From Vigna angularis (taxonomy: Eukaryota; Streptophyta; Magnoliopsida; Fabales; Fabaceae): a stretch of 64,000 nucleotides of DNA. Position numbers and translations under genes: made by a program. Positions 4,087-57,718 of the stretch are shown piece after piece. The stretch lies in NCBI RefSeq assembly GCF_016808095.1, contig NC_068974.1:2976001-3040000 (forward strand), written 5' to 3'. The notes beneath the pieces were generated by a model, which had not been told where the DNA came from, did no database searches, and saw only the letters and a list, made by a program, of their open reading frames with translations. Each line of letters opens with the position of its first letter. Position 1 is the first letter of the stretch.

Positions 4087-4929
4087 TGTTTTATGTTTTT
4101 TTTTTATGTTTTTGTTGGCCGAGTGTGGCCAGAATATTAATGAGGACTGTAATATGGACAATTAATTTTTATGTTTTTTTTATTAAGGTCTGTAATATTA
4201 ACGATCAATAATGATCGAACCCCGAATGTCTTTATTATGTTTTTATGTATTTTTGTTATATTTTTTTTATTATAAATAAATGCACTCAAATTAGTATTTG
4301 TTCAAACTATATTCCTCTGACCATTACATGTTAATTATGCACTTATGTTGATTTTTTTTTTAAACAAAAACTAAATAAATAAATAAAACAGAAGACAAGT
4401 TAACAAAACAAAAGACCTAATACCAAACACAAAAAATCAAAGCACACAAAACACAAATGTTAAAAACAGCAGACAAAAAAAAAACACATATTTACAATAC
4501 ATACATTAAGAAAATAAAACACGTGAAAGAGAAGACACATTTTTTATATAATTTTTTTTTTAATTAACAAATAAAATACATATGACATGCATACAGAAAA
4601 TAGAACATCACATCTCAACACAAAATAAAACACAACACAATTAAACATGCTTTAAACAAAACAGAACAATTTTATTTTTTTAATTTTTTTTTAATTAATT
4701 AATAATTTTTTTTAATTAACAGATATAGTACAAAACACAACACAATAAATATAAAAGACTAAATATATATTAACACAGTAAAAATCTAAAACAAAAAACC
4801 TGAACTGAAGTGACAACGCCGCCAAAATTTGCTGAAGGTGTCGTTGTCGCCTACAAAAATACAAAAGACAAAACACACATATTAACAGAACAAAAATTTA
4901 CACAACAAGAATCTAAAATCAAACCGTCA

Positions 4930-4953
4930 TTGGTCCCCGGCAGCGGCGCCAAA
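4930..4953 (-). other. Primer binding site of W1
   Basis: On the minus strand, directly after the LTR end, the sequence reads TTTTGGCGCCGCTGCCGGGG. This is the primer site type found in Tat/Athila-like Ty3 elements. It fixes the element's orientation. Confidence 0.75.
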
Positions 4954-4956
4954 ATT

Positions 4957-14872: not shown

Positions 14873-14877
14873 AATAT

Positions 14878-17061: not shown

Positions 17062-17066
17062 ATAAT

Positions 17067-17325
17067 TGTCAGTTATTTATGCATTTTAATATTTGTTTTA
17101 ATGCAATTATGCAGATTAAATAAAAGGATCAGTTTTTGACCGGGTCTTTAGGAAGAGATAGCTAAAATTTAGCTTTTGTAACCTCCCACATTTAGTGGGC
17201 AGTTCAGTTGTTTTCTTTTGTGTGTCACGGTGATAATTTCACCTATAAAGATGTATTTTTTTTTTCAGTTTTTAATAACAGAGAAAGCATCACATTCAGA
17301 AAACAATTTGTTACTTGTGTTCACA
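17067..17325 (+). repeat. 5' LTR of copia element 2
   Basis: Starts TGTCAGTTATTTATGC and ends TGTGTTCACA; the internal primer site begins a few bases later. Confidence 0.9.
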
Positions 17326-17444
17326 ATTTGGTATCAGAGCTCCTTCATAGGGGCTGAACCAGAAAGTTACGTGTGAGAGAAACTGAAACACCTAGAAAGA
17401 GAGAGAACACTGAGTTGTGAGTGTTGAAAGAAATCAACTTAGAG

Positions 17445-19163
17445 ATGGTTGAAACAGTGAAGTACGTTCAACCAGCTATTCCAAAATTTGATGGTCATTA
17501 TGAACATTGGGCCAAGTGGATGGAAAATTTCTTACGTTCCAATGAATATTGTGACTTAGTGGAAAAAGGTATTGATGTGATACCAGACACAGAAGAAGCC
17601 TCAGAATATGATCTCAAAAGAATGGAAGTACAGCAACTCAAGGACTTAAAGATCAAAAATTATCTCTATCAAGCAATTGATAGGGAAATTTTGGACACCA
17701 TCTTAAATGACGAAACATCCAAGGATATATGGGATTCCATGAAGCAAAAATTTCAGGGGTCAACAAGGGTGAAAAGAGCTCAACTACAAGCTCTACGCAA
17801 GGATTTTGAGACTTTGCAGATGAAGGAAGGAGAATCAGTAAACTCCTATTTTGCACGCACCTTGAAAATAGCCAAAAGCATGAAGGCAGTTGGAGAAACC
17901 ATGAAAGAAAATGTGATAACTGCAAAAATCTTGCGATCCATGACAGTCAAATTCAACTACGTGGTATGTTCCATTGAAGAATCCAATAATATGGATATGA
18001 TGACTATAGATGAATTGCAAAGTAGCTTATTAGTACATGAGCATAGAATGATGCTGTCAGTTGAAGAGGAACAAGTTATGCAGACTGTGGTTGAAGATAG
18101 AAACAACGGAAGAGGAAGAGGAAGAGGAAGAGGATCCTTTCAAGGTAGAGGAAGGGGCAGGAAAATGTTTAATAAAGCTGATGTAGAATGCTTCAAATGT
18201 CACAGATTTGGACACTTCCAGTATGAATGTCCTATGTGGGAAAGGAAAGCTAATTATGCAGAAATGGAAGATAAAGAAAAACAAGAGGATGAGCTCTTAT
18301 TAATGGCTATTGTTGAGAGCAAAGAAGGAGGGGATGAGTGGTTTCTTGACTCAGGTTGCAGCAATCACATGAGTGGTAATAAGGAGTGGTTCTCAGAATT
18401 GGATGAGAGTTTCCGACACAAGGTAAAATTGGGAAATAACACTCGTATAGTAGTAATGGGGAAAGGAAGTGTGCGGTTGATGGTGAAAGGTGTTGTTCAT
18501 GTTGTTTCTTATGTATACTATGTTCCTGAACTCAAAAATAATTTATTGAGTCTCGGACAGCTGCAAGAAAAGGGTTTGAGCATAAATATTCAAAATAACA
18601 AGTGCAGTGTCCTTCATCCAGAGAAGGGGCAAATTATGGAGATTCAAATGAGTGCAAATAGAATGTTTGTTTTGACAGCAAAGGTAGCAGCAACATGCTT
18701 CCAGGCAAATGTGGAGGATAAGTCTCAACTATGGCATAATAGACTTGGACATTTAAGCTATGATGGCTTAAAATTGCTTTACTCTAAGAAAATGGTGACA
18801 GGGCTATCTTCAATTACCACTCCTCAGAGTCTCTGTACACACTGTCTAGCAAGAAAGCAGCACCGAAAAGCTATGTCTAAGAAAAGTCAATGGAGAGCTT
18901 CTAAGAGACTGCAGCTAATTCATGCAGATTTATGTGGGCCCATTCAACCAACATCAAAGAGTAATAAAAAATATTTTCTAAGTTTTATTGATGACTTATC
19001 ACGTAAAACTTGGGTATATTTTTTGGGTGAGAAATCTGAAGCTTTTTCTTTCTTTAAAAGCTTTAAGGCAATGGTTGAAAAAGAAACTGGAGAAAATATT
19101 ATATGTTTGAGGACAGATAGGGGAGGTGAATTTTCTTCAAAAGTTTTTGATGATTTTTGTTGA
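17445..19163 (+). pseudogene. Copia element 2 gag, protease and integrase N-terminal part
   Basis: The likely start is the ATG at 17445 (MVETVKYVQPAIPKFDG), inside a frame open from 17421. In order: UBN2-type gag; an RGRGRGRG basic stretch; a CX2CX4HX4C knuckle (CFKCHRFGHFQYEC); protease WFLDSGCSNHMSGN; the HHCC integrase zinc region (WHNRLGHLS ... CTHCLARKQHR); and the integrase core with the first two catalytic aspartates (HADLCGP and RTDRGGEF). A TGA at 19161-19163 stops the frame just before NHGIRRQ; the same frame continues, so this is one nonsense mutation. Confidence 0.9.
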
Positions 19164-19772
19164 AATCATGGAATAAGGAGGCAATTAATTGCTGCATATA
19201 CTCCCCAGCAGAATGGAGTTGCTGAAAGGAAGAATAGAACCATTATGAATATGGTTCGTGCAACCTTGAATGGAAGGCATGTACCTAAAGTTTTCTGGCC
19301 AGAAGTAACAAAATGGTGTGTTTATATTCTGAATAGGAGCCCAACAGCAGCAGTAAAAGATAAAACTCCTGAAGAAGTTTGGAGTGGAGTGAAGCCTTCT
19401 GTAGATTACTTTCGAGTCTTTGGTTGTCTGGCCCATGTTCACACACCTGATCAACAACGAATTAAGCTTGATGACAAGAGTAAACAATGTGTTTTATTTG
19501 GGGTCAACGATGAATCAAAAGCATACAGGCTGTATGATCCAGTCAACAAAAAAATTGTAATTAGCAAGGATGTAATATTTGAAGAGCATAAGGGCTGGAA
19601 TTGGGAGTATAACAAAGCAGAGAATCAACAAAATATTGTTGAATGGGAGAAACATGATGAAAATAGCTCTGGTATACAACTTGACACACCAAACAGTGAG
19701 GAGCTGCAACAAACAGAGTCACAAAACACTGCTGAAACAGATTCCAGAGTTGACACATCAGACAGTGAATAA
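19164..19772 (+). pseudogene. Copia element 2 integrase C-terminal part and linker
   Basis: Same frame as the preceding piece. It contains the third integrase catalytic residue, Glu in NGVAERKNR, then the GKSPEE-like and FGCLAHVH region and KCVLFG-type sequence, before a Gln/Thr-rich linker. A TAA ends it at 19770-19772. The first ATG is at 19245, but the segment is the continuation of a polyprotein. Confidence 0.88.
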
Positions 19773-20642
19773 ATGCAACAAGCAGCAGAGCGACAAAATA
19801 CTGCTGAAACAGATTATAGGATTGAGTCTTATAATCCAGTACTTGAGACTCCATTTGAAGGGAGGGCTAGAAGGCAATGCAAAAAACCTGTTTGGATGGC
19901 AGATTATGAAGAAGGAGAATTGTCTGATGATGATACAAGGGCAATGCTTACAACAGTAATTGATCCAGAAAGTTTTGAAGAAGCTGTCAAGAGTAAGAAA
20001 TGGCGTGATGCAATGGAAAAGGAGATGGAAGCCATAGAAAAAAATGAAACGTGAGAATTAATTGAGATGCCAAAAGAAGTGAAGCCAATTGGAGTCAAAT
20101 GGGTATACAAGACCAAGCTCAAGGAGAATGGAGATATTGACAAATACAAAGCAAGGCTAGTAGCAAAAGGATATGCACAACATTATGGAGTGGATTATAC
20201 AGAGGTATTTGCACCTGTTGCCAAACTAGACACTATTCGTATAATTCTTTCATTGACTACACAAAATGGATGGATCATATTTCAATTGGATGTGAAAAGT
20301 GCATTCCTTCACGGAGAGCTTAAGGAAGAGATTTATGTACAACAACCGATTGGGTTTATAAAGAAGGGAGAAGAAGATACAGTATACAAGCTAAGAAAGG
20401 CACTATATGGACTCAAACAGGCACCAAGAGCATGGTACAACAGAATAGAAGGATATTTTCTACAAAATGGCTTTGAAAGATGTTTTTGTGAATATACATT
20501 GTTTACAAAGTCAGCCGAAGGAGGTAAAATTTTAATTGTGAGTCTAGATGTGGATGATCTAATTTATACTGGAAATGATATAAAGATGTGTGATGATGTT
20601 AGACCTCTACTTATGTATAGTAGGAGAAAGACAGTTACATAA
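19773..20642 (+). pseudogene. Copia element 2 reverse transcriptase, N-terminal two thirds
   Basis: It continues in the same frame, with a further stop at 20052-20054 (TGA where Trp is expected in NET-W-ELIEM). RT motifs are WVYKTKLKENGDIDKYKARLVAKGY, QLDVKSAFLHGELKEE and ALYGLKQAPRAW. The catalytic box reads DVDDLIYTGND rather than YVDD, so Tyr is replaced by Asp. After KMCDD the frame runs into the solo LTR at 20597. Confidence 0.88.
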
Positions 20643-20915
20643 CTTAACTGTCTAGGCAGTTAAGGGGTTAGGGGGTTGGTTGAGGATACCTTGTATATAA
20701 GGGAGATTAGTTGTAAGTAGAGGGGAGTTTTTTGGAGTATTATTGTTTTGCGGGAACTCTTGTAGTTCTTTGGAGAGAGGTTAAGCTCTCGGGTTACGTT
20801 GTAACACCATTCTTGTTGATTCTTTTCAATAAAAGAAGGCTGTATAATTCAGAGTACCTGTTCGGTGTTGTGTTTCTAGTGCTATTCATAGGTTCTTGAT
20901 TAAAAGAACCTATCA
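20597..20915 (+). repeat. Solo LTR inserted in the RT gene, target duplication GATGA
   Basis: A 319-bp unit starts TGTTAGACCTC and ends AACCTATCA. GATGA lies at 20592-20596 and 20916-20920. It carries TATATAAG near 20692 and AATAAAAG near 20829. Removing it and one duplication restores the RT order from MCDD to FKNSMMLEFDM, which proves the insertion. The parental element is not in this window; orientation is inferred from the TATA and poly(A) signals. Confidence 0.9.
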
Positions 20916-20920
20916 GATGA

Positions 20921-21827
20921 CTTTAAAAATTCCATGATGTTGGAATTTGACATGACTAACTTAGGGAAGATGAGATATTTTCTTGGAGTTGAAATTCTAC
21001 AGAATACACATGGAATTTTCATGTGTCAAAGAAAGTATGCTCAGGAGGTTTTATCTCGATTTGGTATGCTAAACTGCAATGCCGTCAAAAATCCAATTGT
21101 ACCGGGAACAAAACTGTCTAGGAATGATGCAGGGGCCAAGGTGGATGCTACTTTGTTCAAGCAAGTAGTTGGAAGTCTCATGTATTTGACTGCTACTAGA
21201 CCAGATTTAATGTTTGTTGTCAGTTTAATCAGTAGATTCATGGCTAACCCCACAGAAACCCACTGGTCTGCAGCCAAACGAATTCTAAGATACTTGAAGG
21301 GGACTACTGAATTTGGAATTCTCTACAAAAAGGGAGAAAAATTGACACTGGTTGCCTATACTAACAGTGACTTTGTTGGAGATATAAATGACAGAAAAAG
21401 CACATCTGGATCTGTTTTCATGTTAGGAATTGGAGCTATTTCATGGTCCTCCAAGAAGCAGCCAATTGTAACTCTTTCTACAACAGAGTCAGAGTATGTA
21501 GCTGTTGCAACAAGTGCATGCCAATGTATTTGGATTAAGAGAATATTGGAGGCTGTTGGTTTCAAAGATCATAAACAAGTTATGGTTCTATGTGATAGCA
21601 GTTCAGCTATTAAATTATCTGAAAACCTAGTGTTTCATGGTAGGAGTAAACATATTGATGTTAGATTTCATTTCTTAAGAGATCTTGTCAAAGAAGGGAA
21701 AATCAAGCTACACTATTGCAGTACTCAGAATCAAGTAGCTGATATAATGACAAAGCCACACAAACTAGAGCAGTTCGTGAAATTCAGAAGCATGCTAGGA
21801 CTAATTGAAGCATCAGAAATAAACTAA
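20921..21827 (+). pseudogene. Copia element 2 RT C-terminus and RNase H
   Basis: The frame resumes after the solo LTR with MMLEFDMTNLGKMRYFLGVEI. It continues through KYAQEVLSRFGM, VGSLMYLTATRPD, RKSTSGSVFMLG and STTESEYVAVATSAC to the RNase H tail KHIDVRFHFLRDLV and VADIMTKPH. It ends in a normal TAA. This part is open and well preserved. Confidence 0.9.
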
Positions 21828-21862
21828 ATGACTTATTTGAGTATTTAGCTTAAGGGAGGGAT

Positions 21863-22121
21863 TGTCAGTTATTTATGCATTTTAATATTTGTTTTAATGT
21901 AATTATGCAGATTAAATAAAAGGGTCAGTTTTTGACCGGGTCTTTAGGAAGAGATAGCTAAAATTTAGCTTTTGTAACCTCCCATATTTAGTGGGCAGTT
22001 CAGTTGTTTTCTTGTTTGTCACGGTGATAATTTCACCTATAAAGATGTATTCTTTTTCAGTTTTTAATAACAGAGAAAGTATCACATTCAGAAAACAATT
22101 TGATACTTACTTGTGTTCACA
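21863..22121 (+). repeat. 3' LTR of copia element 2
   Basis: Starts TGTCAGTTATTTATGC after a purine tract and ends TGTGTTCACA; followed by ATAAT. Confidence 0.9.
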
Positions 22122-22126
22122 ATAAT

Positions 22127-27356: not shown

Positions 27357-28811
27357 TGATAATAGCATATTTTACCATGATTTTAGTGTCGAATTGAGAG
27401 AGAATATCAACTCTTTCTTACCTTTTTGCCTTGTAAATCCTAGTTTTCATTTAGTTTCTTAAGTGGTTGCATCTTAAACTTTAATGATTCAATTTCATCA
27501 TTAAGCCCCATTTTTTAGTATGTTTTGGTCATTTACATCCAAGCTTGTATGCCAAACTGAAGAACTGAAGAACCATATAAGCAAGAATGAAGGTAAAAGA
27601 GGAAGTTTTGAGAAAAAAGATAAATGTTGAAGCTGGGGTGCGGCTGGCGTGCAGCTGAGCGCCAAGCTGAGCGCCACCTGACCAGACTTGCTGTAGCTGA
27701 GCGGAACAGCTCTGTGTAGCTGAGCGCCACCCGATCCGACTTGCTGTCGCTGAGCGGCACAGATTTTGTGCAGCTGAGCGCCAACTCTCTGGAATGTTGT
27801 CGTTGGGGTGCAGCTGGCGTGCAGCTGAGCGCCAGCTCTCTGGAATGCTGTCGCTCGGTGATAACAGTTGAAAAACTGTTATTTTCATGCTTAAAACTGA
27901 CAGAAAAAGCAACCTTTACACTTAGAAACTAGCTTGAAATCATGCTTTTATCCATATTTTCATAAATAAGAGAGTTGGACAGGTTTATGCTTGATTTCAG
28001 TGTTTTTGTGCAGGTTTTAAGGTGAATTTAGTGAAAGAAGTGAAGAAGGAGAGAGATGGAATCATAAAAGTCAACCAAAAACCAGAAAAGTCAACCATTC
28101 AACAAGAAAAGTCAACCAGTCAACCAGAAAAGTCAACCAGTCATCCAGAAAAGTCAACCAGTCAACCAAAAAGTCAACAGTCAACCAGAATACGAAAAAA
28201 GTCAACCAGACGAGTTTTGGGCCAGTTTTATGCGATTTTATGATCTGTTTGGGCCTGGACCCGTTTTCTATTATTTTTATGTCCTATTTAAAGACCTAGA
28301 TGTCTTTGGTAAATGTTGGGTAAATCTGGACTTGGATTAAACACCTAAAGGAAATAGTATCTAGGGATAGAACTAGGATCTTTGGTTGTCTTAGATCTCA
28401 ATTCTTAATGCGGAACTAATTGTTAGGTCTTCCAAGGGATTGGAGCCTAATAAGGAAGTCTAGGCTCTCTCTACCAAGGGATTGAGTTTGAGTAATTTAG
28501 TAGATTGACATTGGCATATTAATGAAGAGGAAGTGATTTTCTATACATAAGAGTGAAGTAGGTGAAATCATAACCCCAATAATACCATTCCATATCATTT
28601 CTAATCTTTCCATTTCCAAGTGTTTGAGTATCTGAGATCACTTTTATCATTTATGTTTCATATTTACTTTAATTACACTAAAACCCAAATTATGAAGCAT
28701 TCTTTAGTCTAAGTTAGTTGGAAATTATACGATTGTTTGGTGACACGAGTCTCTTGGGAAACGATATCCGATCTTACCCGTTTTATTACTTGAAACGATT
28801 TGGTACACTTG
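27357..28811 (+). repeat. 3' LTR of element E, main part, split by W2
   Basis: Starts TGATAATAGCATATTTTACC after a purine tract. It is a mosaic: 27357-27858 is E-specific with an array of GCAGCTGAGCGCC; 27859-28316 is homologous to the beginning of the element B LTR starting exactly at its terminal TGATAACAG; 28317-28811 resembles the end of the D LTR (compare 47000-47540). The remainder is at 39975-39988, ending TCTCAACA. Confidence 0.7.
27640..27855 (+). repeat. Short tandem array of GCAGCTGAGCGCC in the E LTR
   Basis: About eight degenerate copies of GCTGAGCG in roughly 215 bp. Three copies of the 15-mer GTGCAGCTGAGCGCC lie at 27649, 27768 and 27819. Open frames on the minus strand here are a by-product of the repeat. 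Confidence 0.8.
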
Positions 28812-31579
28812 TGATACGGGTGTCGCGACCCGTCAAATTTGATTTACAAAAATTTATGCAGTATAGTTACTAGGAAGTGACTCCTAGGTCGTCTCTCAAG
28901 GACCAATTTTGGTGGTTCAGTCTCAGATTTTTTACACGAAGGGGGGGGGGGGGGGTTGGTTGTGATTTTTGTTTTGCGGAAAATAAATTAAAGTTGACTG
29001 GAAATTAAATAAAATAGAATTAAAAACACTGAAATAAATTTTAACGGTGGTAAAAACTGAACGGTAAAAAAAAGAAAACGTAAATGGAAAGTTCAACAGT
29101 AATTGAAATTAAAATACTGTAACAATAAACATGCAGAAAACATAACAGCAGTGTAAATAAAATTTACCCAAAAGTGTTTAAATTTAAAATGCGTGAACAG
29201 TACCATGCAGAAAAACATAAAAACATTGTAATTAAAATTTACCAAAATCATCAGTAAAAATAAGCGGTAAAAACAACGTTTGAAAATAAGATAAAGAGTA
29301 AAACACATTGACAAAATTTACGATGTAGAAAACAATAAACGATAAAATAAAAGAAATGGTAAAATTAAAAGCACTGAAAATGAAATTCATCAAGGATTAA
29401 ACAATTGAAAATAATATTCCAAAATCAAACTAACGATACATTACACGTTTGGAAAATGGAAACTGAGAGCTTGCTACTGAAAAATGGAAAGAGCTGGAAA
29501 ATGGAAAGAGGCCAGAGCCTCCTCTGGCCGTGAGTGGTTCCTAAACTACTCCTAAAATCTAATACTTTCTCCTCTGCTGCCCATTCCATTTTATAGAGAA
29601 AACTCATCCTCCCGTGACTTCTCCTTCATTTCAACAATTGCAAAAGAATTAGGATGGGTCCCTTCATTCTTGTATCTGTTTGCTTCCTTGCTTCGCAGCT
29701 AAAATTCTCGTGAGTTTCCTTCCAACCATGGCTCTTTTCACTATTCTATTCTCTTCCCGTGAACACCTCCTGGCCGTGACTGCATTTGCAATATGGTGGC
29801 CCCTTCAATTGATTCCAACTTAGTGATGTTTGGTAAATGTTTTTCTAAATTTTCCAATGGGGCCGTGAGCTTACACATCCGGCTCTAAACCGACAATCCT
29901 TCATTTTGAACGGCCCCTCTTCTGTGCTAATTCTCCAAACCACTGAACGCAACTACTCAAGGGAACCATGAGCTTCCAATCTTCTTCCAAGGCCGTGTGT
30001 TGTTTGTCTTTGCTGCACCGTGGGCTGCTTGCTGGATGGTACCGAGAGCTCCATTAATCATCATGCTGCATCTCCATTCTCCCTGCCAATGAGTGCAGCC
30101 TATGCTGCTTTTCTTTGCTGCCATTACCATGCACGTCTTCTGTACTGGAACGTAGCTCTCTTCTTCCTTCCAGCCAGCGTCCAAAGCTACTGGACCGTGA
30201 TGGAGCTGGACTGGTGGAGATGGCTGGATGCATGGACGGAGCTGCACCGCTTGCTGGCTTCTCTTCTCCAATCAACAAGTGGCTGGTTCCATCTTCCTTT
30301 CCGTGTACACATGGTGCCTCTCTTCTTCCTTCCAAATTAAATCAACACAGCCGTGACCTCCTCTTCTTTGGTGGACCAGCTGATGCACTCCTTCTTACTT
30401 CCAGCAGGTTGTGATCTCCACATCTTCTTCCAGCTGGACGTTCAACCCTTCTTCACGCTGCTGCATTCTTCTCAACCGTGCATCATTCTCTAAAACAAAT
30501 GGCAAGTGAGTGCTGCTGCTCAAGACCGAGACACCTCCTCCTTCAGCTCTTCATGCACACCAAACTATTCCAGAATTATTTCTCCATGGGCCGTGTCATT
30601 TCTCCTCTCTATTTCCACATTCCAGCTCACCCTTCTCCATCAAATTGAATCAAGACTAACGTGTATTCTCTTTTCTAAAATAAAGATCACCGTGAACACC
30701 TCCTGGAAGTGGCAGCAACAACTCCCTCTTTTATGGATCGTGAAGGTGCTGGATTAGCTGGACTCTCACGGCCTCCCCCTCAAACTCGCGGCCTCTCCCT
30801 CTTTGAAACCGCATTCTCATATCTCCAAAACAATGAAAAACAAAAGTGACAAAGGTGGCCACTCTCTTCTGACAATTCAGCGCCCCTTTCTTTCCAATTG
30901 TTGAGTTTTGCGTTTCCATAAATTCATTCTTTAATCTTCACCCATGCCAAGTCAAAAACGCATATGCTTTACTTTAAAAGAGATTCTCTCTTTTTTTTCC
31001 TCCAAGAATCGTAAACTTCTTTCCTTGTGGTCCCCTCCATCTTTCTTTATTTGTTAAATAGAATGTGAATTCTCTTTCACGTGATCATTGTCTCCCAAGG
31101 TTATGAATTTTGGCACATTATCAAGTGAAAACCGTGAATGAGTGGTGGCCCTTTTCCAAACATATATGCCAAATTAAATTGTTGATATGGGGCCGTGCAA
31201 CCTGCATGAAATTGTTAAAAGAGAAAGAAGATTTTCCTGCTGGCTGCTAGGCCGTGTGGTGTGTAATGCTTCTCAGCCAATTTTGTTCAATCTTCCATTG
31301 CTCAACACACAAATTAAATTAATACAGTACAACTTTTTCTAAATAAATAATATTGTGTGAATGTTTTTCCAATTGTCCCAATTTTTATTTCCAAAATTTT
31401 CCCTACACTCAATAATGTAAGTAATTAGTCTCAGACAATTCAAATTAATTAAAATAAGAATTTCTGATCGAATTAAGCTCAATTCAGTAAAATAGGAAAA
31501 TACTGGATAATTATGCACAATTCCCTGATTAAATCTAGTACAATAAGCTAAGTGAAGTGAAGAAAATAATGATTCATCA
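28812..31579 (-). repeat. 3' LTR of W2 (2768 bp)
   Basis: Bounded by TGATACGGGTG and GATTCATCA. It contains the CTAGGAAGTGACTCCTAG inverted repeat, a poly-G run near 28940 and many CCGTG phrases. Small frames inside (for example 29957-30271 and 30020-30340) recur in the other LTR and lack domains. Confidence 0.93.
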
Positions 31580-33053
31580 AAATAGACCACACTTAGTCTT
31601 TTGCACTCCTGGGCAAAATTAAGACACAAATCAGGGAATAGTTCAAAGGACTTTCAGAGGACGTGACACAAATGCAGCATACAGAAAATAAAACTCACAA
31701 GAAAAATAAAAAGAATTTACATAGTTCTCAAGAATTATGAACAGATGAAAAGAAGTAGAAAATATCCAACACAAAATCAAATAAAGCAGATACTTACAGA
31801 AATCATCCAAGCAATTCAATACACGGAAAAATAATCAATCAGCTCAAGAGGTGATTTAAAAATAACAAAACCTCACAGATGCACTAACAGTGTTTCTCTC
31901 AAGTGTTTAAGGTAAATCAATGTCACTCAATGCACTCAAGAAAACAAACACAAGTAGACTTGGCAAGCTTCTAATATCAACACTTAAAACATATGCGCAT
32001 GTTCAGATCAAAAGGTCTTTATTGGGTTGTAATGGGGCCAAGGACAGGGGAGGATAAATTTGGATAAGTAGCTATAGCTCAGAAGAAATAGAGGTGCACT
32101 AGGGAACAAAAATGTAAACACAGTGAAATCTCACCCAAACCTCTAATTCAATCCTCTTCTCGACTCCATTATTCACAAAATTATTTTTCAATTTCTCTTT
32201 TTCTCATCAAAAATTTTTTTTTCTTTCATCCTGTCTTCTTTCTTTTTTTTTATCACACAACAGGATATAAATTATCATTTCAAAACATGATGAAGAATCA
32301 ACTAGCCAATTCATCAGAATTCCCTAGGAGACCACACTTTTTCACAAAACACTTCTATAGCTCCAGACTTTCCTAAGGTTCAGGTAATCATTTGTTTTTC
32401 ACTTAGGATCAGTGTATGAGCTTTAAAAACAAACAAATGGGGAAAGTATAGGCTCAAAGGGGTTATCAAAGGATAATAACAAGGTAAGCTTATTTGGCTA
32501 AAGAGGCTCAAGAATAAAATTGCCTTTATCACTTCTAAACATGCATATAAATCAAGTATATCAAAAAGAATCAAGCCAAGGCATATGTGCAAGAAATCAA
32601 GAGTCATATCACACAAGAAAGAACATTAAGTGGCTCAAATCTCACATAGGGTATCCGTGTTATAATCAATTCAACCTCTTGAACACATAATCATCTTTCC
32701 AAGAAGAGAAAAACAAGGATTGCAATCTATAAGTATTAAGTAAGTGAAGGAAAAATCTACAACTTAGACATCATCCAGAAATCAAGAGAAAAATGTAAAA
32801 TTTATTGCACACAAAACTCGATAAAAATAACTTAAAACAGAAAAAATTTAACACTAAAAAACAAAAAATTTAACACACAAAATACATACTAATAGAAACT
32901 AACAGAAAATTCAAAATTTCTCCCCAGTAGACCACACTTAAATCACACAATGTCCTCAGTGTGTAACAATCATCAGATTATCAATTTCAAAGCAGTCGAA
33001 TAATATAGACAAGTGCAATAAAAAGTTAGGAAATGGGAAGAAATTTTTCAATA

Positions 33054-33128
33054 ACATCCATCAGTAGATGTTATCATTGACATCCATCAGCAGATGTCTA
33101 AATCACCTAGCACCCTTCAGAAGATGCT
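33054..33128. other. Three iterated stem-loops with constant loop (W2)
   Basis: ACATC/GATGT at 33054-33071, GACATC/GATGTC at 33079-33098, and a weaker AGCACC/GATGCT at 33109-33128. The loops are CATCAGTA, CATCAGCA and CTTCAGAA. Position and order match W1. Confidence 0.6.
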
Positions 33129-33173
33129 AATAATTTTTAATTAATTTTTTTTTTTTTTGAAAAGGAGACCGGT

Positions 33174-33243
33174 ACTGTGACAACAGTCTCGGTGGCAAAG
33201 ACCGGAACTGTTGCTACAGTGGAAAGAAATCTGGCTATAAAAG
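33174..33243 (+). promoter_or_regulatory. Promoter of the W2 WOX-like gene: twin palindromes and TATA box
   Basis: ACTGT-N4-ACAGT occurs at 33174-33187 and 33207-33220, again 33 bp centre to centre, followed by TATAAAAG at 33236-33243. The first palindrome keeps the outer ACCG/CGGT arms. The leader has no ATG up to the donor CAG-GTAAGT (GT at 33415-33416). The acceptor TTTTAG at 34055-34060 places a 646-bp intron in the 5' UTR. Confidence 0.62.
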
Positions 33244-34063
33244 GGTACCTCCTCAGCGTCAGAGCGCCATTTCCTGACCTAGCCTCTCTCTCTGCTCTCC
33301 TCTCTTCTCTCTTCTCTCTTCTCGAGCGTCTGGATCTGCGAGGAAGCTCTGTCACCGTGCCATCTGAAGAGTCCGAGATCAGCGAGGAGCTCCTCTGCCA
33401 GCCTACTACTCCAGGTAAGTTCTCTGCACCTTGGATCTCTATTTCTTCCTTTTCTGCTTCTCTGTTGTTATTACCATCCTGCTTTCCTGCTTTCCATTTT
33501 TTCTTCTCTGACCTCTTGCCTGCTCTCCCTCTTTTCCATTTTCCTGCTTTCCTTTATTTTTCTTCTTCTGCCGATCTATCTTCTTTCCTTTCTTTCCTCC
33601 CTTTACCGCTTTTTCTGCTATTATTACCTTCTTGCTTTCCTACTTTCCTGCTTTATTTTTTTTTTAAAGAAAAACACATAAAACACAACTGTCAAAAAAA
33701 CTTAAGGGGTATATCGGCTGGAAACCAGACGTTAATCTCCCTTCGATTGAAGGTATTACAGAGACAATCGGGTAGAACAACGCCACGTACCCCACTAAAA
33801 AAAAATAAAACACAGAAACTTAATATACAAGAACAATATGGACAAGGACAACTGGACAACTGGACGTAGATCCGTTTAGGACCCTTTTGCAAGGACCGTG
33901 AAACAGATCTGAGACCAAATACAGAAACAATCAAAGACAGACTGGACAAAATAAATCTAAAAGGAAACAACAACAAATAAAGAAAACACAGACTAATCTA
34001 ATTTTTTTTTTTATGCTTCTTATTTTTCTGTTTTTTATTTTTTTATTTTTTATGTTTTAGAAT

Positions 34064-34597
34064 ATGATGAGCGAGATGGAAATCGAGAGATACACAAGTC
34101 AGCGGTGGCGTCCAACAGATGATCAGGTCAAGATGATGACCAACATCTTCAATTATGGGGTCACTCATCCAAGCCGAGCGCAAATCGTCGAGATCACGTC
34201 TCGACTAAGGACCTTCGGAGATGCCAGCGAATACAACGTGCACTGCTGGTTCAACAACCACGGCAATCGGGTCAGGCGCTGGCAAGCGGAGATAGACCCC
34301 ACTGGCACTCAGTTTTCACAACTGCCGCTGTACATGTATGGTAAGAACTCTCATCAGATCTCAATTTTATTGAATTTTTTTTTTCTATTAAAATTAACAC
34401 AATTTTTTTTTTGGTTGAAAGAATACGACTGGGTAATAATGAGGGCACCGAGGCTGCTGGACCTCTTCCCCATTCCCATCATACTCGATCCAGAAACAGA
34501 GATTCCTCCGCCTCCGCTCGTGACTTTTCGTACCAGAGCTCCCTCAACGGAGCTCTCCCTTAGACCACCACAACCAGCTCGACAATTCTTTCGTTGA
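34064..34597 (+). CDS. WOX-family homeodomain protein captured in W2 (two coding exons)
   Basis: Coding exons 34064-34340 and 34422-34597 flank an 81-bp GT-AG intron, giving about 150 residues. The intron is a multiple of three and open, so an unspliced 177-residue form is also possible. The homeodomain (residues 11-75) has RWRPT, the long WOX loops and the helix NVHCWFNNHGNR with W48, F49, N51 and R55 kept and N50/G53 substituted. Exon 3 gives LLDLFPIP (WUS-box-like) and TELSLRPP (EAR-like). The start is the first ATG after the UTR intron. Helix 3 and the following residues are identical to W1, while the N-terminal half differs. Orientation is opposite to the retroelement. A role as a transcription regulator competing with host WOX proteins is inference; no expression evidence is available. 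Confidence 0.85.
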   Translation: MMSEMEIERYTSQRWRPTDDQVKMMTNIFNYGVTHPSRAQIVEITSRLRTFGDASEYNVHCWFNNHGNRVRRWQAEIDPTGTQFSQLPLYMYGKNSHQISILLNFFFLLKLTQFFFWLKEYDWVIMRAPRLLDLFPIPIILDPETEIPPPPLVTFRTRAPSTELSLRPPQPARQFFR

Positions 34598-35376
34598 ATT
34601 TGTTTTTATTTTCTTATTATTTTTTTTTTATGTTTTTGATGGCCGAGTGTGGCCAGAATATTAATGAGGACTGTAATATGGACAATTATTTTTTCTTTAT
34701 GTTTTTATGTTTTTTTTTTATGTTTTTATTATTTTTATGTTTTTTTATTTTTATTAAGGTGTGTAATATTAACGATCAGAAATGATCGAACCCAGAACAC
34801 TTTTATTTTATGTTTTATGTATTTTTGTTTTTTTTTATGTTTGCTTCTTTTTTTTTATATTATAAATAAATGCACTCAAATTAGTATAAGCTCAAACTAC
34901 ACTCTCAGCCTTATACTTGTTAATTATGCTCATGTGAAGATTTTTTTTTTTTTTTTTTTTTAACAAAAACTAAATAAATAAATAAAAACAGAACACATAA
35001 TAACGAAACAAAAGACCTAATACAGAATTAAAATATAAAAGCGGATAAAACACATATGTCAAAAACAGCAAACAAAGAATATATTTACAAAACATACATT
35101 AACAAAATAACAAACTTGAAACAAAACACAAAAACTCTTCTTTTTTTTTTTTTTTTAAAAGATAATAATTCGTAAACTAAGAAATAAATACACATATCAG
35201 AATAAAGATTTGATACGCTTAAAACAAAATATTTTATCACAAAGCTTTTTTTTTTTTTAAATTTAATTCATGCGCACAATTTTAAAAAAAATATAAAATG
35301 AAATAAATGCAACCATGAAAACACACTAGAAAAGCTAAATAATATGTACATAATGAGGAGAAAGAGTGCTCCCTGG

Positions 35377-36753
35377 TCATGGTGGCAGTTGCCAATTCTG
35401 GGCCATCACTGATATATCTTCCACCTCAGGATTCGGCGAAGATGTCTTCAGGAGCAGCTCGCCCAGTACTGCCCTCTTACTCAAATCAAGAGTTTTCTTG
35501 CTTCTTCTCCGAGCAAGTTGTTGTATCAATAAAATGAGGAGCCTTCTGTCCACCAGCAGTTGTTGAGTCTGAGACACCGGAGTAATACCTGTATTCTCAT
35601 TTACTTTTGTAACCTGGTCATCAAACTCATAATCAATAACATCTGTTATGAATTCAGAATCTGTTTGTAACACATAATCAATTTCAATACAAATCGGGCA
35701 AGAACCAGATTCACAATCACATTCACAATTCTCAGAAAACTGAGTCAGATCGAAATTTTGTTCTAACTCTATCATGTTATGCGATTGCAAAATTCCTGTC
35801 TCAAAATCAATATTGACATATGCATTATCAACAAAATCCACATTCAGTTCAAAGCTATTATCAATGGAAATTTCATCACTGTAATCATGTTCATTCAACA
35901 CAACATTTATATCAATGGTTTCAGAAACTAATACTGAATCAAAAACTTCAGAATTGTCAATCAAATCTATATCAGTTTCAGAATAAACATGTTTTTGCTC
36001 AGTAGAAATTTTCTCATGAATTTCCAATTCATCAACTGCACATTCAAGTTGAGGTACATTTACCTCCACGGTGGAAGATAAAAATGGTCTACCTGGCTCC
36101 ATAGTACTGCTTATTCTTGCCTGGTCCTCAAAAACTTCAGCATTCTCCTCAGGTGCAAGAGTGACCATCTGCCTGATCTGATTACTCAGATTCTGCATGG
36201 CAGCTTGAGTTTCCTGCTGGATCTTCATGCTCTCTTGCTTGAACTTGAGATTCTGCATGGTCATCTGCTCTAATAACTCCTTCAATGTAGGTTCAGAAGT
36301 TGAAGGTTGAGGAGTTATTTGAAAGGGAGCATCATAAAATTGCATCTGCTGTTGTTGCTGTTTTTGTAGCCTGTTGTAGATGTTCGTAGAATAAGCTTGA
36401 GGCGCATCAGAGGCAACAGGGTGCTGCAAAGAAGGACATGCATCTGTATAGTGGTTATTGGAAAGACAAATAGCACATAGTCGTGCAACAGACGCAGATG
36501 GAGATGTAGATCTCCTGTTGGTAGTCAATTGTGTCACCAACTTCTCAAGAGAGTCAATCTTATCGTCCAACTTGCTTTCAAAATCTGATATAGACTGGGC
36601 AACATCATCATGTACGCCCCTCACCAGAGGATGCGCAATATTGTTCTCATTACAAAAATCAGCAGAATAATTAAAGTACCATGCAGAAGGAGATTCATAA
36701 TTAGAGGTATCGGCAGAATAAACATTGTTCACAAAATTAAAATAGGTAGACAT
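35377..36753 (-). CDS. Partial gag-like protein of W2
   Basis: 458 codons from an ATG at 36753. An N-terminal segment of about 70 residues precedes a CX2CX4HX4C knuckle (CAICLSNNHYTDAC). A Gln-rich stretch and a coiled-coil-like segment (LKELLEQMTMQNLKFKQES...) follow, as in the region after the knuckle in Tat/Athila-like gag proteins. The large C-terminal part is acidic and ends with a short Arg/Leu-rich segment. The capsid-type Retrotrans_gag domain expected upstream of the knuckle is missing, and no protease follows. The frame is intact, so the protein may be made and could bind element RNA. It is absent from W1. Confidence 0.75.
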   Translation of the reverse strand: MSTYFNFVNNVYSADTSNYESPSAWYFNYSADFCNENNIAHPLVRGVHDDVAQSISDFESKLDDKIDSLEKLVTQLTTNRRSTSPSASVARLCAICLSNNHYTDACPSLQHPVASDAPQAYSTNIYNRLQKQQQQQMQFYDAPFQITPQPSTSEPTLKELLEQMTMQNLKFKQESMKIQQETQAAMQNLSNQIRQMVTLAPEENAEVFEDQARISSTMEPGRPFLSSTVEVNVPQLECAVDELEIHEKISTEQKHVYSETDIDLIDNSEVFDSVLVSETIDINVVLNEHDYSDEISIDNSFELNVDFVDNAYVNIDFETGILQSHNMIELEQNFDLTQFSENCECDCESGSCPICIEIDYVLQTDSEFITDVIDYEFDDQVTKVNENTGITPVSQTQQLLVDRRLLILLIQQLARRRSKKTLDLSKRAVLGELLLKTSSPNPEVEDISVMAQNWQLPP

Positions 36754-37174
36754 CTAAAAAGAAAAATTCGAAATAAAACACAGGAAAGAAAAAAAAATTT
36801 TAATTAACAGATAAAATACATGACATGCATACAGAAAATAGAACATCACATCACAACACAAAATAAAACACAACACAATTAAACATGCTTCAGACACAAA
36901 CAAGACATAACAATTATTATTATTATTTTTTATCTAACAACTAAATACACAACATAGCACAATAAAAATATAAAAGACAAAACATAGATTACAACAACGT
37001 AATAAAACAAAAACAATAAAAATCTAAAACAAGAACCTGAACTGAAGTGACAACGCCGCCAAAATTTGCTGAAGGTGTCGTTGTCGCCTACAAAAATATA
37101 CAAGACAAAACACACAAAACAAACATATTAACAAAACAAAAATTTACACAACAAAAATCTAAAACCAAACCTCC

Positions 37175-37200
37175 ATTGGTCCCCGGCAACGGCGCCAAAA
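37175..37200 (-). other. Primer binding site of W2
   Basis: The minus strand reads TTTTGGCGCCGTTGCCGGGG directly after the 5' LTR end, the tat-type site also seen in B and D. Confidence 0.78.
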
Positions 37201-37202
37201 TT

Positions 37203-39969
37203 TGATACGGGTGTCGCGACCCGTCAAATTTGATTTACAAAAATTTATGCAGTATAGTTACTAGGAAGTGACTCCTAGGTCGTCTCTCAAGGACCAATTT
37301 TGGTGGTTCAATCTCAGATTTTTTACACGAAGGGGGGGGGGGGGGTTGGTTGTGATTTTTGTTTTGCGGAAAATAAATTAAAGTTGACTGGAAATTAAAT
37401 AAAATAGAATTAAAAACACTGAAATAAATTTTAACGGTGGTAAAAACTGAACGGTAAAAAAAAGAAAACGTAAATGGAAAGTTCAACAGTAATTGAAATT
37501 AAAATACTGTAACAATAAACATGCAGAAAACATAACAGCAGTGTAAATAAAATTTACCCAAAAGTGTTTAAATTTAAAATGCGTGAACAGTACCATGCAG
37601 AAAAACATAAAAACATTGTAATTAAAATTTACCAAAATCATCAGTAAAAATAAGCGGTAAAAACAACGTTTGAAAATAAGATAAAGAGTAAAACACATTG
37701 ACAAAATTTACGATGTAGAAAACAATAAACGATAAAATAAAAGAAATGGTAAAATTAAAAGCACTGAAAATGAAATTCATCAAGGATTAAACAATTGAAA
37801 ATAATATTCCAAAATCAAACTAACGATACATTACACGTTTGGAAAATGGAAACTGAGAGCTTGCTACTGAAAAATGGAAAGAGCTGGAAAATGGAAAGAG
37901 GCCAGAGCCTCCTCTGGCCGTGAGTGGTTCCTAAACTACTCCTAAAATCTAATACTTTCTCCTCTGCTGCCCATTCCATTTTATAGAGAAAACTCATCCT
38001 CCCGTGACTTCTCCTTCATTTCAACAATTGCAAAAGAATTAGGATGGGTCCCTTCATTCTTGTATCTGTTTGCTTCCTTGCTTCGCAGCTAAAATTCTCG
38101 TGAGTTTCCTTCCAACCATGGCTCTTTTCACTATTCTATTCTCTTCCCGTGAACACCTCCTGGCCGTGACTGCATTTGCAATATGGTGGCCCCTTCAATT
38201 GATTCCAACTTAGTGATGTTTGGTAAATGTTTTTCTAAATTTTCCAATGGGGCCGTGAGCTTACACATCCGGCTCTAAACCGACAATCCTTCATTTTGAA
38301 CGGCCCCTCTTCTGTGCTAATTCTCCAAACCACTGAACGCAACTACTCAAGGGAACCATGAGCTTCCAATCTTCTTCCAAGGCCGTGTGTTGTTTGTCTT
38401 TGCTGCACCGTGGGCTGCTTGCTGGATGGTACCGAGAGCTCCATTAATCATCATGCTGCATCTCCATTCTCCCTGCCAATGAGTGCAGCCTATGCTGCTT
38501 TTCTTTGCTGCCATTACCATGCACGTCTTCTGTACTGGAACGTAGCTCTCTTCTTCCTTCCAGCCAGCGTCCAAAGCTACTGGACCGTGATGGAGCTGGA
38601 CTGGTGGAGATGGCTGGATGCATGGACGGAGCTGCACCGCTTGCTGGCTTCTCTTCTCCAATCAACAAGTGGCTGGTTCCATCTTCCTTTCCGTGTACAC
38701 ATGGTGCCTCTCTTCTTCCTTCCAAATTAAATCAACACAGCCGTGACCTCCTCTTCTTTGGTGGACCAGCTGATGCACTCCTTCTTACTTCCAGCAGGTT
38801 GTGATCTCCACATCTTCTTCCAGCTGGACGTTCAACCCTTCTTCACGCTGCTGCATTCTTCTCAACCGTGCATCATTCTCTAAAACAAATGGCAAGTGAG
38901 TGCTGCTGCTCAAGACCGAGACACCTCCTCCTTCAGCTCTTCATGCACACCAAACTATTCCAGAATTATTTCTCCATGGGCCGTGTCATTTCTCCTCTCT
39001 ATTTCCACATTCCAGCTCACCCTTCTCCATCAAATTGAATCAAGACTAACGTGTATTCTCTTTTCTAAAATAAAGATCACCGTGAACACCTCCTGGAAGT
39101 GGCAGCAACAACTCCCTCTTTTATGGATCGTGAAGGTGCTGGATTAGCTGGACTCTCACGGCCTCCCCCTCAAACTCGCGGCCTCTCCCTCTTTGAAACC
39201 GCATTCTCATATCTCCAAAACAATGAAAAACAAAAGTGACAAAGGTGGCCACTCTCTTCTGACAATTCAGCGCCCCTTTCTTTCCAATTGTTGAGTTTTG
39301 CGTTTCCATAAATTCATTCTTTAATCTTCACCCATGCCAAGTCAAAAACGCATATGCTTTACTTTAAAAGAGATTCTCTCTTTTTTTTCCTCCAAGAATC
39401 GTAAACTTCTTTCCTTGTGGTCCCCTCCATCTTTCTTTATTTGTTAAATAGAATGTGAATTCTCTTTCACGTGATCATTGTCTCCCAAGGTTATGAATTT
39501 TGGCACATTATCAAGTGAAAACCGTGAATGAGTGGTGGCCCTTTTCCAAACATATATGCCAAATTAAATTGTTGATATGGGGCCGTGCAACCTGCATGAA
39601 ATTGTTAAAAGAGAAAGAAGATTTTCCTGCTGGCTGCTAGGCCGTGTGGTGTGTAATGCTTCTCAGCCAATTTTGTTCAATTTTCCATTGCTCAACACAC
39701 AAATTAAATTAATACAGTACAACTTTTTCTAAATAAATAATATTGTGTGAATGTTTTTCCAATTGTCCCAATTTTTATTTCCAAAATTTTCCCTACACTC
39801 AATAATGTAAGTAATTAGTCTCAGACAATTCAAATTAATTAAAATAAGAATTTCTGATCGAATTAAGCTCAATTCAGTAAAATAGGAAAATACTGGATAA
39901 TTATGCACAATTCCCTGATTAAATCTAGTACAATAAGCTAAGTGAAGTGAAGAAAATAATGATTCATCA
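37203..39969 (-). repeat. 5' LTR of W2 (2767 bp)
   Basis: Nearly identical copy of 28812-31579. Differences noticed: one G in the poly-G run, G/A near 28918/37308, and C/T near 31292/39682. Confidence 0.93.
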
Positions 39970-39974
39970 ACTTG

Positions 39975-44951: not shown

Positions 44952-45994
44952 TGATGGACAAATTTATGATCACCAAAATATGATGTCACAAACTTGTTGA
45001 ACAATTGGCAAGTATGACCGAATCGTTTCAAGTAATAAACTCGGTAAGACCAAGTATCGTTCTCCCAAAGGACTCACGGCCTAGTTTAGTTATGTGATTT
45101 GTTGATTAGCTAAGACTTAAGAACGAAATAATTGGATTTTGATATGCAAAAGACGAAAATAAACATGTATGCATGAGGTTGATCAATGGCAAAAGCAAAA
45201 GACAAGCACTTTCAATGAAATATATATATGAATATGTTGTTGGGGTTCAATTTCATCTTATCCACTCTCATATATTTTAGGAATTCAACATTCAAATCAT
45301 CATTGTTAATGTCACTCTCTAAAGTACCTTTCAAGAAGGCTTCTCCCTAATTACGAGTTCATACAATTCCTAGCATTCCTAATAATTAGTTCATCAAGTG
45401 TAGGAGCTTAACGACAACTAATATAATATTGGAAGAAATTCCCTGGATCTAGACTTCCCCGTACGTTCCCGTATCGACAAAATCAATAATCATGCATTGA
45501 ATGAGTTAAACAAAGCAAGCATTAAGCAAAGAGGAAAAACCCTAACTAATGATGAAAGAAAGCATAAATCTTAGATTAAGATGTAAGCACAAATTACATA
45601 TATGAGAGCTTCAAAAGATTACATTGATTCCCAACAAACATACAAGGTATAGTTCACCATATTCATGGTGAACCTAGATGAACAATAATGAAAGAATGAA
45701 AGAGATAGAAAAACCCGAAAAAGAGAATAGGAGAGTGATAATGCTAAATTTTACCATATTTTAAGCATCATTTTAGTAGCAAAATCAACTCCTTTCTAAC
45801 TTATAACTTGCTTAATCCTCTTGTTTTGTCTTGTTTTCTATATATTTGTGTTTTTGGCTACTTTGATGTACTTTCATCAATAATCCCTTATTTTGTAGCT
45901 AAAAATGAGCTTGGAAGACTCTCCAACCATGTATAGAACTGGACCAAGAAGTTAGCACGGAGAAACGCTTGCCACACATGCAGGACACTCGCAC

Positions 45995-46520
45995 AATCAG
46001 GACGTTCGTCCAAGATTCAGAACGTTCGTCCAAAAGAGAAGAGAGAACGCTCGCCAGAGAAGTGGACGTTCGTCCAGAAACAAGCGGACGCTCGTCCTCC
46101 ATGCAGAGCGGACGCTCGTCCAAATGCGAGAGAGAGAGGACGCTCGTCCTAGGCAGAGGACGCTCGTCCAGCCAGGCGGGCGCTCGGCCAAGAGAGCGGA
46201 CGTTCGTCCAGGAGGACGCTCGTCCGAGGACGCTCGTCCCAGAAGCGGGCGCTCGTCCAAGAGAGGGGGACGCTCGTCCAGAGGCAGCAGGCGCTCGTCC
46301 AAGAAGCAGACGCTCGTCCAGCCTGGCAGAAGTGGACGCTCGTCCAGCCAGGCAGAGGACGTTCGTCCAGAACGCTCGTCCAGAGGATAGGACGCTCGTC
46401 CAGCCAGACACGAGGGACACTCGTCCATGCAGAAGAAACGAGAGGACGCTCGTCCATGCAAGAGGACGCTCGTCCATGCAGGAGGACGTTCGTCCAGCAG
46501 AAGTGGACGTTCGTCCACTT
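45995..46520 (+). repeat. Tandem array of GGACGCTCGTCCA in the D LTR
   Basis: About 24 copies of GGACG(C/T)TCGTCC, each a mini-palindrome with arms GGACG/CGTCC around CT or TT, separated by 5-15 bp. All frames are open over 500 bp on both strands because of the repeat, so the 190-200-residue frames here are not called as genes. Confidence 0.9.
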
Positions 46521-46539
46521 TCAGCGTCCAGAGAGTTTC

Positions 46540-46652
46540 ACGCCCGGGCGTGAGAAATGGGGCGCCCGGGCGCGACTTTTCGCCAGCTTTCAATATTTCC
46601 AGAGAGTCTCGCGCCCGGGCGTGAGAAAATGGGGCGCCCGGGCGCGACTTTT
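46540..46652 (+). repeat. Paired GCGCCCGGGCG palindromes in the D LTR
   Basis: CGCCCGGGCGTGAGAAATGG with GGGCGCCCGGGCGCGACTTT (46545-46580) is repeated 73 bp later. The same GGGCGCCCGGGCGCGA phrase occurs at 40667 in unit F. Confidence 0.8.
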
Positions 46653-48293
46653 ACTGATGTGGCAGACAGCTTATTTAACCCTAAAACGCGAAGGGGAAAC
46701 GGTCTTTGGTCATTTGGAGGTGCGATTTCACTCAGAGGAGAGCTTGGAGGACTGCTAGGGTTCGTGGGAACACTCCCTTCTTCCTCTTGGGTTCTTCATC
46801 TTCTTCCATGGTCATCTTGTAAGCTTTAGGGTTCTCCATGGAAATGGAGAACCAAACCCATCTTTGTTGGGATTAGTTGTAGCCTTTGAATTCTTGTGTA
46901 ATTGTTGAATGATTTGAATTTATATATGCCTTTTCTATCAATTGCTAGTATTCTTGTTTCCAATCTTAAAGCTTGCATGTAATGGGAACGTTCATGGCTT
47001 GATTTTGGGGTTTTATGGATTATGGGAACGTAAGATGAAATCTTGAACTGAAATAAGAGTCCTTGTGGGTCATTGATTCTAGGAATGGAAGATGATTCAC
47101 ATGTTGTCTTAGATCCCAGCTCTTTAATGCGGGTTTTGCTTGTTAGATTGCCAAGGAATTGGGGTTTGATAAGGAAAACCTAGGCTCTTTCACCTAAGGA
47201 ATTAGGGCTAGAGTGTTTTAGTGGATTGACTTTAGTAAATTGATAGAGAGGAGATAAAATTGGTTATACACAAGAGTGCATTGGTGAAAACTAACCTTAG
47301 CAATGTCACTTCATTCCATTTCTAGTCTTTTCCATTTCCAAGTGTCTTCAATACCAAAGTCCAACTTTGTAATTATGTATGAATTTATATTCCTGCACTT
47401 GTTCTGTATATTGATGTTATGTTATTGAGTCTATATGAGTTGTTAATCGCACAATTCTCTAGTATTACGAGTCTATTGGGAAAACGATACCCGGTCTTAC
47501 CGGTTTATTACTTGAACGATTCGGTGCACTTGCCGAAATCGAGCCCAACAAGTATTTTTTGAGCAATCAAGTTTTTTGGCGCCGTTGCCGGGGATTTGGG
47601 GATTGAACCTGAGTCCTAGCAACGGCTAACAAATTAAGTTGGGCCTCATCAAGTTTTTGGCGCCGCTGCCGGGGAACCTAGATGAACATTGATTACATTG
47701 ATTCCCAACAAACATACAAGGTATAGTTCACCATATTCATGGTGAACCTAGATGAACAATAATGAAAGAATGAAAGAGATAGAAAAACCCGAAAAAGAGA
47801 ATAGGAGAGCTGTCACCATCTCCCAATCTACCCCCAAGGGTTGAAGAGAGAGTGTTTGCTTCGTTTATGCCAAAGATACCAACCCTAAGACATCTAGGTC
47901 TTTAAATAGGACATAAAAATAATAGAAAACGGGTCCAGGCCCAAACAGATCATAAAATCGCATAAAACTGGCCCAAAACTCGTCTGGTTGACTTTTTTCG
48001 TATTCTAGTTGACTGGTTGACTTTTTGGTTGACTGGTTGACTTTTCTGGTTGACTGATTGACTTTTCTGGTTTCTGGTTGACTTTTCTCATTCCATCTCT
48101 CTCCTTCTTCACTTCTTTCACTAAATTCACCTTAAAACCTGCACAAAAACACTGAAATCAAGCATAAACCTGTCCAGCTCTCTTATTTATGAAAATATGG
48201 ATAAAAGCATGATTTCAAGCTAGTTTCTAAGTGTAAAGGTTGCTTTTTGTGTCAGTTTTAAGCATGAAAATAACGGTTTTTCAACTGTTATCA

Positions 48294-57335: not shown

Positions 57336-57424
57336 ACACAAGAAAACAAAACCCTAGAAAAGATTTGTTAGCACAAAAAGATATAGGAGAAGATATAGAT
57401 TCAGAAGATAAAAGATTCAAAGGA

Positions 57425-57620
57425 TAAGATAAAATAATATAAAATAAAATAAAATAAAATCTAATCAAATCAAATCAAATCAAATCAAATCTAATCTAAT
57501 CAAATCAAATCAAATCTAATATAATCAAATAAAATAAAATAAAATCAAATCAAATAAGATAAAATAAAATCAAATCAAATCAAATCAAATAAAATAAAAC
57601 CAAATCAAATAAAAACCGAA
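57425..57620. repeat. AAATC/AAATA pentanucleotide tract in the B leader
   Basis: About 190 bp of mixed AAATC, AAATA and AATCT pentamers between the primer site and gag. It is low-complexity leader expansion. Confidence 0.85.
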
Positions 57621-57718
57621 AAAATAAAAACAGAAATTCAAAATTAAAGTCAAAGATAATCAATAATCAAACAAATTAACCAGTTAAACCAGAGTCCCCG
57701 GCAACGGCGCTAAAAACT

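Follow-up and report, generated by a model that had tools for sequence, protein, structure and literature searches.

Does the WOX homeobox gene found inside a young LTR retrotransposon of Vigna angularis belong to the element, and what could a retrotransposon gain from a plant regulator of the stem-cell type? The question arises from a window of 64,000 nucleotides, which is the whole stretch of DNA analysed here. An initial annotation had proposed that a complete WOX-type gene is carried at 34064-34597 by an element with 5-bp target duplications and near-identical LTRs. The carrier, W2, occupies 28812-39969 and is read on the minus strand; it is a young, non-autonomous, Tat-like element. Its LTRs of 2.77 kb each, delimited by pairwise comparison, lie at 37203-39969 (5' in element orientation) and 28812-31579 (3'), both on the minus strand. 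They are 99.89% identical over 2769 columns, about three columns being different, and the target duplication is ACTTG, at 28807-28811 and 39970-39974, so both structural claims hold. A PBS-like stretch, with reverse complement TTGGCGCCGTTGCCGGGG, adjoins the 5' LTR at 37178-37202 on the minus strand and completes, with the paired LTRs, the TG...CA termini and the 5-bp duplication, the set of features of an LTR retrotransposon. An ORF of 458 aa with a CCHC-like motif follows at 35377-36753 on the same strand, which we take to be gag by its position and motif. It gave zero Pfam matches above the cut-off and is called gag-like because its counterpart in another copy (L050), an ORF of 479 aa at a like place, matches Retrotrans_gag with an E of 1.5e-13; comparison with another gag-like ORF in the window gave only an E of 0.079. 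No match to the pol of the relative L046, discussed below, was found anywhere within the 64-kb window, and W2 has this gag-like ORF only, not the gag and pol of its own that make an element autonomous.

The gene encodes a WOX-type protein of 150 aa in two coding exons on the plus strand (34064-34340 and 34422-34597) with no internal stop, separated by a phase 1 intron, GTAAGA...AAAG, at 34341-34421. It is antisense to the carrier, since the PBS-like stretch and the gag-like ORF sit on the minus strand. The translation of exon 1 holds the homeodomain (Pfam match at 34100-34276), and exon 2 holds LLDLFP (34454-34471), ELSLR (34550-34564) and the stop codon TGA, in agreement with the order of homeodomain, LFP and ELSL motifs described initially for one spliced frame. 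The HMMER-type check that had been suggested for the homeodomain gave PF00046 with an E of 3.3e-7 at 30.4 bits, above the cut-off of 22.9. The best matches of the protein in the PDB are WUSCHEL (7e-12) and STENOFOLIA (9.3e-12), and a profile of the family found STENOFOLIA (1.4e-17) and WUSCHEL (3.7e-17) as the sole two chains at E 0.01. A structure match of a predicted model is also consistent with a WOX-type homeodomain; the model was built for P0009, a protein 94% like that of W2, and has a mean pLDDT of 61.4, with 84-92 in the homeodomain blocks. The residues R38, W39, N90 and R94 of WOX homeodomains, as named in the accessible part of PMC7203112, are kept in W2 as R14, W15, N65 and R69. 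The recognition helix differs from that of WUS at three positions (Q89 to N, which is N64; K92 to G; A93 to N), and given these changes the DNA specificity of the protein may differ from that of WUS or be lost. The EAR motif has the form LxLxL, and that of W2, ELSLRP, falls short of it. The WUS-box-like motif is LLDLFP in W2 and in the sister element W1, without the first T of the consensus TLxLFP given for the modern (WUS) clade in an excerpt of PMC4901127. The two repression motifs noticed initially are, in consequence, present in forms slightly off the canonical ones, which are exact in more distant relatives of W2.

Upstream of the coding region, a TATA box, CTATAAAAGG, lies at about 33235-33244 on the plus strand. 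A putative 5' leader exon with approximate start would span 33265-33414, ending at AG|GTAAG (33414/33415), and a predicted leader intron would run from 33415 to 34060, with an acceptor-like AG at 34059-34060 just 5' of the ATG. These signals were also looked for in 50 related loci, namely the 30 best ones, W2 included, plus 20 chosen as divergent. A fuzzy upstream match contains CTATAAA in 38 of the 50, a count that leans upward since the best match was picked within about 240 bases; stricter scans found a TATA box in 16 of 50 with a first regular expression and in 21 of 48 with a looser one. A leader donor-like GGTAAG followed by T, C or A stands upstream in 48 of the 50 loci. We infer from these sequence signals that the gene may have its own TATA promoter driving Pol II transcription.

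A sister element, W1, lies at 1-7249 on the minus strand, with its left LTR (1-1047) cut by the window edge and its right LTR at 4957-7249, the two being 99.05% identical over 1051 columns. Its gene copy, on the plus strand at 3526-4086 (exons 3526-3802 and 3899-4086), was recognised by sequence and by a Pfam homeodomain match (PF00046, E 5.2e-7). Over the stretches compared, W1 and W2 are 70-94% alike in non-coding sequence, and in the two coding exons 89.9% and 81.2%. The non-coding segment that precedes the antisense promoter (32697-33130 in W2, 2169-2590 in W1) reaches 94.3%, above both exons, and might serve the retrotransposon as a cis element. At 12323-14874, four matches to the W2 LTR (81-94% alike) mark pieces of another LTR of the W type, perhaps a solo LTR.

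The copy count that had been asked for is large, and the gene is a trait of the family. At least 357 related loci were found on contigs C1-C11 as the merged union of three six-frame searches, a lower bound in which 150 of 621-622 and 150 of 931 gene candidates were scored. The union takes 150 of 150 rows from the first W-type search, 113 of 150 from the second, minus the rows already present, and 104 from the group C search, where rows for the second exon and those duplicating group A were left out. Among the best 150 of 622 scored in the W-type search, all with E ≤1.3e-50, just three have a stop in the queried stretch. The spliced frame is intact through both motifs in 47 of the 50 loci read, with conserved splice sites; two of the broken loci are frameshifted at the WUS box (L025, L026) and one has a stop in exon 2 (L038). 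For the 20 divergent copies, an LTR pair of 99.05-100% identity surrounds the gene inside 10 kb in 11, one pair being just 262 bp, and the PBS-like stretch is present in the same 11 with at most three mismatches; in the other nine neither LTR pair nor PBS was found within 10 kb. Target duplications were seen in L032 (GAGAC) and L036 (CATTG). These copies demonstrate that the WOX gene is a regular, selected component of the family and not a one-off capture by W2. Some copies are arrayed at spacings of 8.1-8.8 kb or 15-23 kb. Two four-locus runs on C6, at 890951-917662 (8.82-kb spacing) and 1947083-1972090 (8.25-kb spacing), look as if tandem elements shared LTRs. One copy, L048, is flanked by an inverted repeat of about 0.9 kb (996-1893 and 8737-9617 of that locus, 93% identical). 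A TIR-flanked DNA transposon was considered as the carrier and discarded, an inverted repeat across the gene being found in that one locus among 12 and taken as local.

Profile searches of proteins added group B, marked by YCWFQNHGNR, and group C, marked by YCWFQNYGYR. Their identity to W2 is 33-55%, and the members that retain an intron (P0063, P0064 and P0080) have it at a like position. The searches also gave one V. radiata protein, one V. umbellata protein and P0082. The motifs of group C are canonical (TLDLFP and mostly ELSLRL), and the EAR motif of group B is also mostly ELSLRL. P0082, of 146 aa on a 1512-bp ENA contig, is only distantly related; it has TLDLFP and STELSLRI in exact form and is possibly an element-type WOX from outside the Vigna groups. 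The best 42 group C matches (E ≤6.1e-35) are spread over 11 contigs, with stops in 14. The placement of group C in elements is based on three integrase neighbours and on the flank of one locus (L051), where the backbone is 83.8-92.0% identical to the group A copies L040, L041, L045, L048 and L049. Protein searches returning 53, 75 and 81 hits gave only Vigna where the organism was shown; recognisable host WOX genes were likewise not returned. No relative was found among the viral contigs searched.

The link to complete elements comes from L046, in which an uninterrupted ORF of 1213 aa on the strand opposite to the WOX gene carries RVT_1, RT_RNaseH, RVT_3, zinc-binding and integrase core domains. 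It has two RNase H domains (RT_RNaseH 3.2e-24, RVT_3 3.2e-19), and an additional RNase H in pol is described as a hallmark of the Tat lineage in the available portion of PMC10508981. The assignment to Tat is made because of this second RNase H, by domain content and in the relative L046, W2 being without pol. An assignment to Athila, suggested by the look of the PBS and gag, was dropped on account of the same two domains. A close pol was found in L046 alone among the 20 fetched copies, the match in L032 being only 23%. In L046 the shared backbone and the pol ORF are 290 bases apart, which seems too little for an LTR. With the L046 integrase as query, the best 110 of 5868 candidates were scored; 20 of them are followed within 3 kb by a WOX gene, which is always on the other strand. 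The distance is 1.10-1.20 kb in 17 cases and 0.78-0.94 kb in the three that came from the group C query. Of the 20 best rows (≥96% identity, L046 among them) 16 have such a neighbour, and of the 90 below at least four do; random placement gave a mean of 0.25 co-locations and a maximum of 3 in 500 draws. On the upstream side of the integrase, zero WOX genes were found among the 110 rows. The WOX factor is therefore encoded by an accessory gene that lies antisense in Tat Ty3/gypsy elements.

It could be argued that this is a host WOX family repeatedly caught between LTRs, as public annotation calls some of these proteins WOX genes. In our opinion this idea deserves practically no credence, given the at least 357 dispersed loci, the constant antisense place 1.1 kb past the Tat integrase, the LTR pairs around 11 of 20 copies and the tandem arrays of elements. 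Three figures (loci, LTR pairs and 47 of 50 intact frames) exclude the counter-case named in the initial annotation, a host locus lying by coincidence between unrelated LTRs. What has to be added to it is that the gene is antisense and is an old, selected module of a Tat-type family that includes pol-bearing copies.

The young age of the elements could by itself account for an intact gene, and 14 of the 42 group C-like matches (E ≤6.1e-35) hold stops. Both facts would suit a captured passenger that is copied along without function. The coding sequence argues against it. Between the W1 and W2 genes dN is 0.077 and dS 0.46, with 18 amino-acid differences against a neutral expectation of 39.6 ± 3.1 (5000 draws, minimum 28). 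For 48 intact coding sequences (47 loci plus W1, the three broken loci excluded), the median dN/dS is 0.129 and the maximum 0.284 over 885 pairs with dS of 0.15-1.2, none reaching 1; these are pairwise estimates from pairs that are not independent. Constraint also goes motif by motif, with dN/dS of 0.09 in the homeodomain, 0.055 in the WUS box stretch, 0.073 in the EAR stretch and 0.24 in the spacer, and the splice sites are conserved. We find a passive passenger scarcely credible. The same values bear on a decoy or dominant-negative protein, without sequence specificity, that would titrate TOPLESS or host WOX partners and in this way weaken, for example, silencing or differentiation. The tightest constraint on the WUS-box and EAR stretches and the changed residues of the recognition helix favour such a role, whereas the homeodomain is itself constrained and keeps the equivalents of R38, N90 and R94, which makes the decoy unlikely to our mind. 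A product of another kind would be the antisense transcript, controlling the element through double-stranded RNA with the protein secondary, a role proposed for antisense ORFs of plant elements in the accessible sections of PMC7264820. Constraint at the amino-acid level and in-frame indels need translation, and we hold this explanation to be very unlikely.

These data suggest that a jumping gene uses a plant regulator of the stem-cell type for its own purposes. We think it probable that the selected antisense WOX gene carried by elements of the W2 type acts in trans as a repressor to the benefit of the element. Pol-bearing relatives have (gag-)pol first and, about 1.1 kb beyond the integrase, the WOX gene in antisense; W2, W1 and other short relatives have lost pol and kept the gene, being presumably mobilised by the pol of the relatives. 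The introns survive retrotransposition because the gene is antisense and so not spliced from the genomic RNA. Pol II would transcribe the gene from a TATA promoter of its own. The protein would enter the nucleus, bind DNA via its WUS-like recognition helix, with the R38, N90 and R94 equivalents kept, and use its WUS-box and EAR-like motifs to draw in a co-repressor of the TOPLESS type. Its most likely role would be that of an in-trans repressor tuning the transcription of meristem or germ-line host genes or of the elements themselves. The idea that the protein binds the LTRs of its element at TGAA was considered and set aside, as it lacks firm support from site counts: single sites are not enriched (46 against 46.2 and 47 against 42.7 expected), and spaced pairs number 4 against 0.68 in W1 (p 0.007) and 2 against 0.65 in W2 (p 0.14), in a set of 16 tests. 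It is possible, if doubtful, that a retrotransposon lineage has made a transcription factor of the stem-cell niche its accessory gene. The WOX protein would hold meristem and germ-line cells in a permissive state, or bring them into it (undifferentiated or poor in silencing), so that insertions reach the next generation, and its copies would have split into a number of divergent groups in Vigna; the element copies would then resemble captured host regulators radiated by viruses.

As to its origin, the gene resembles WUS/WOX5-type factors in its plant WOX homeodomain and in its C-terminal WUS-box-like and EAR-like motifs; the combination of WUS box and EAR is limited to the WUS/WOX5 subgroups according to PMC5977200. 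The same paper implies that WOX5 likewise has the homeodomain and the WUS box on separate exons. We infer a WUS/WOX5-like origin from this motif combination and exon arrangement. The element protein differs from host WUS/WOX5 in having 150 aa only, a changed helix and hundreds of retrotransposon-borne copies. Its homeodomain is about 33-47% identical to host WOX homeodomains (best match per W-family row 0.32 to 0.47). A 66-column tree, unrooted and with a bootstrap that has not settled, puts 13 host WOX rows, WUS among them, on one branch side with support 97/97.

Host-type genes inside LTR elements are found in captures such as Bs1 and those of sorghum and rice; LOGL4-bearing Athila elements are reportedly a further case, and Steinbauerova et al. 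are said to have described extra ORFs. According to PMC7264820, captures are usually sense, occur in single or few copies and are often fragments; the WOX gene stands antisense, is intact and under selection, and occurs throughout its family. A closer likeness is with the aORF-3R antisense ORFs of Tat/Retand (gene23 of Grande, RIRE2, ORF4 of Retand and ORF2 of PvRetro13), which, according to PMC7264820, PMC11963269 and PMC4093653, are likewise found in most copies, placed after pol and before the 3' LTR, and in Grande have their own promoter. The products described there are TRP28 or SMC-like, none of them with a homeodomain, whereas the product of the V. angularis gene combines a WOX homeodomain with motifs like the WUS box and EAR, and an intron interrupts the coding region of the gene. 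An antisense ORF with a TRP28 domain occurs in 97% of clusters of the Retand sub-lineage (PMC11963269, in part); among 29 WOX family proteins scanned, TRP28 gave no match at E 0.01, and they are not assigned to that sub-lineage. A search of the open literature, with subscription papers mostly outside its scope, found no WOX- or homeodomain-bearing LTR element, which agrees with the initial annotation in knowing of none. The terms 'homeo' and 'WUS' are absent from the accessible text of PMC11963269 and PMC11728184, and 'homeo' from that of PMC13317346 and PMC4093653. Antisense accessory ORFs are already known in Tat; one encoding a homeodomain was not found in the literature searched.

What antisense accessory genes do in Tat elements is an open question in PMC7264820 and PMC11963269. 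Here one of them encodes a protein type whose biochemistry is known; its DNA-contact residues and repression motifs lend themselves to direct assays in Nicotiana or Arabidopsis, and the host is a diploid legume with hundreds of WOX-element copies. It would be a plant parallel to the regulatory genes of retroviruses. There is also a practical side, as Vigna WOX gene lists include element-borne copies under host names. P0035, P0055, P0058, P0060, P0062, P0066, P0069, P0070, P0077 and P0078 have public names like 'WUSCHEL-related homeobox 2', '4', '5-like' or '8-like', and such names may inflate Vigna WOX gene counts.

Other repeats were observed in the window. Plus-strand copia-like ORFs lie at 17065-22123 between direct repeats 94.8% identical. 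At 45899-46758 both strands have long open frames of repeated peptides (DERPL, GRTS), probably a tandem-repeat artefact, and a tandem array with spacings of 10 and 15 bases is present at 57394-57683.
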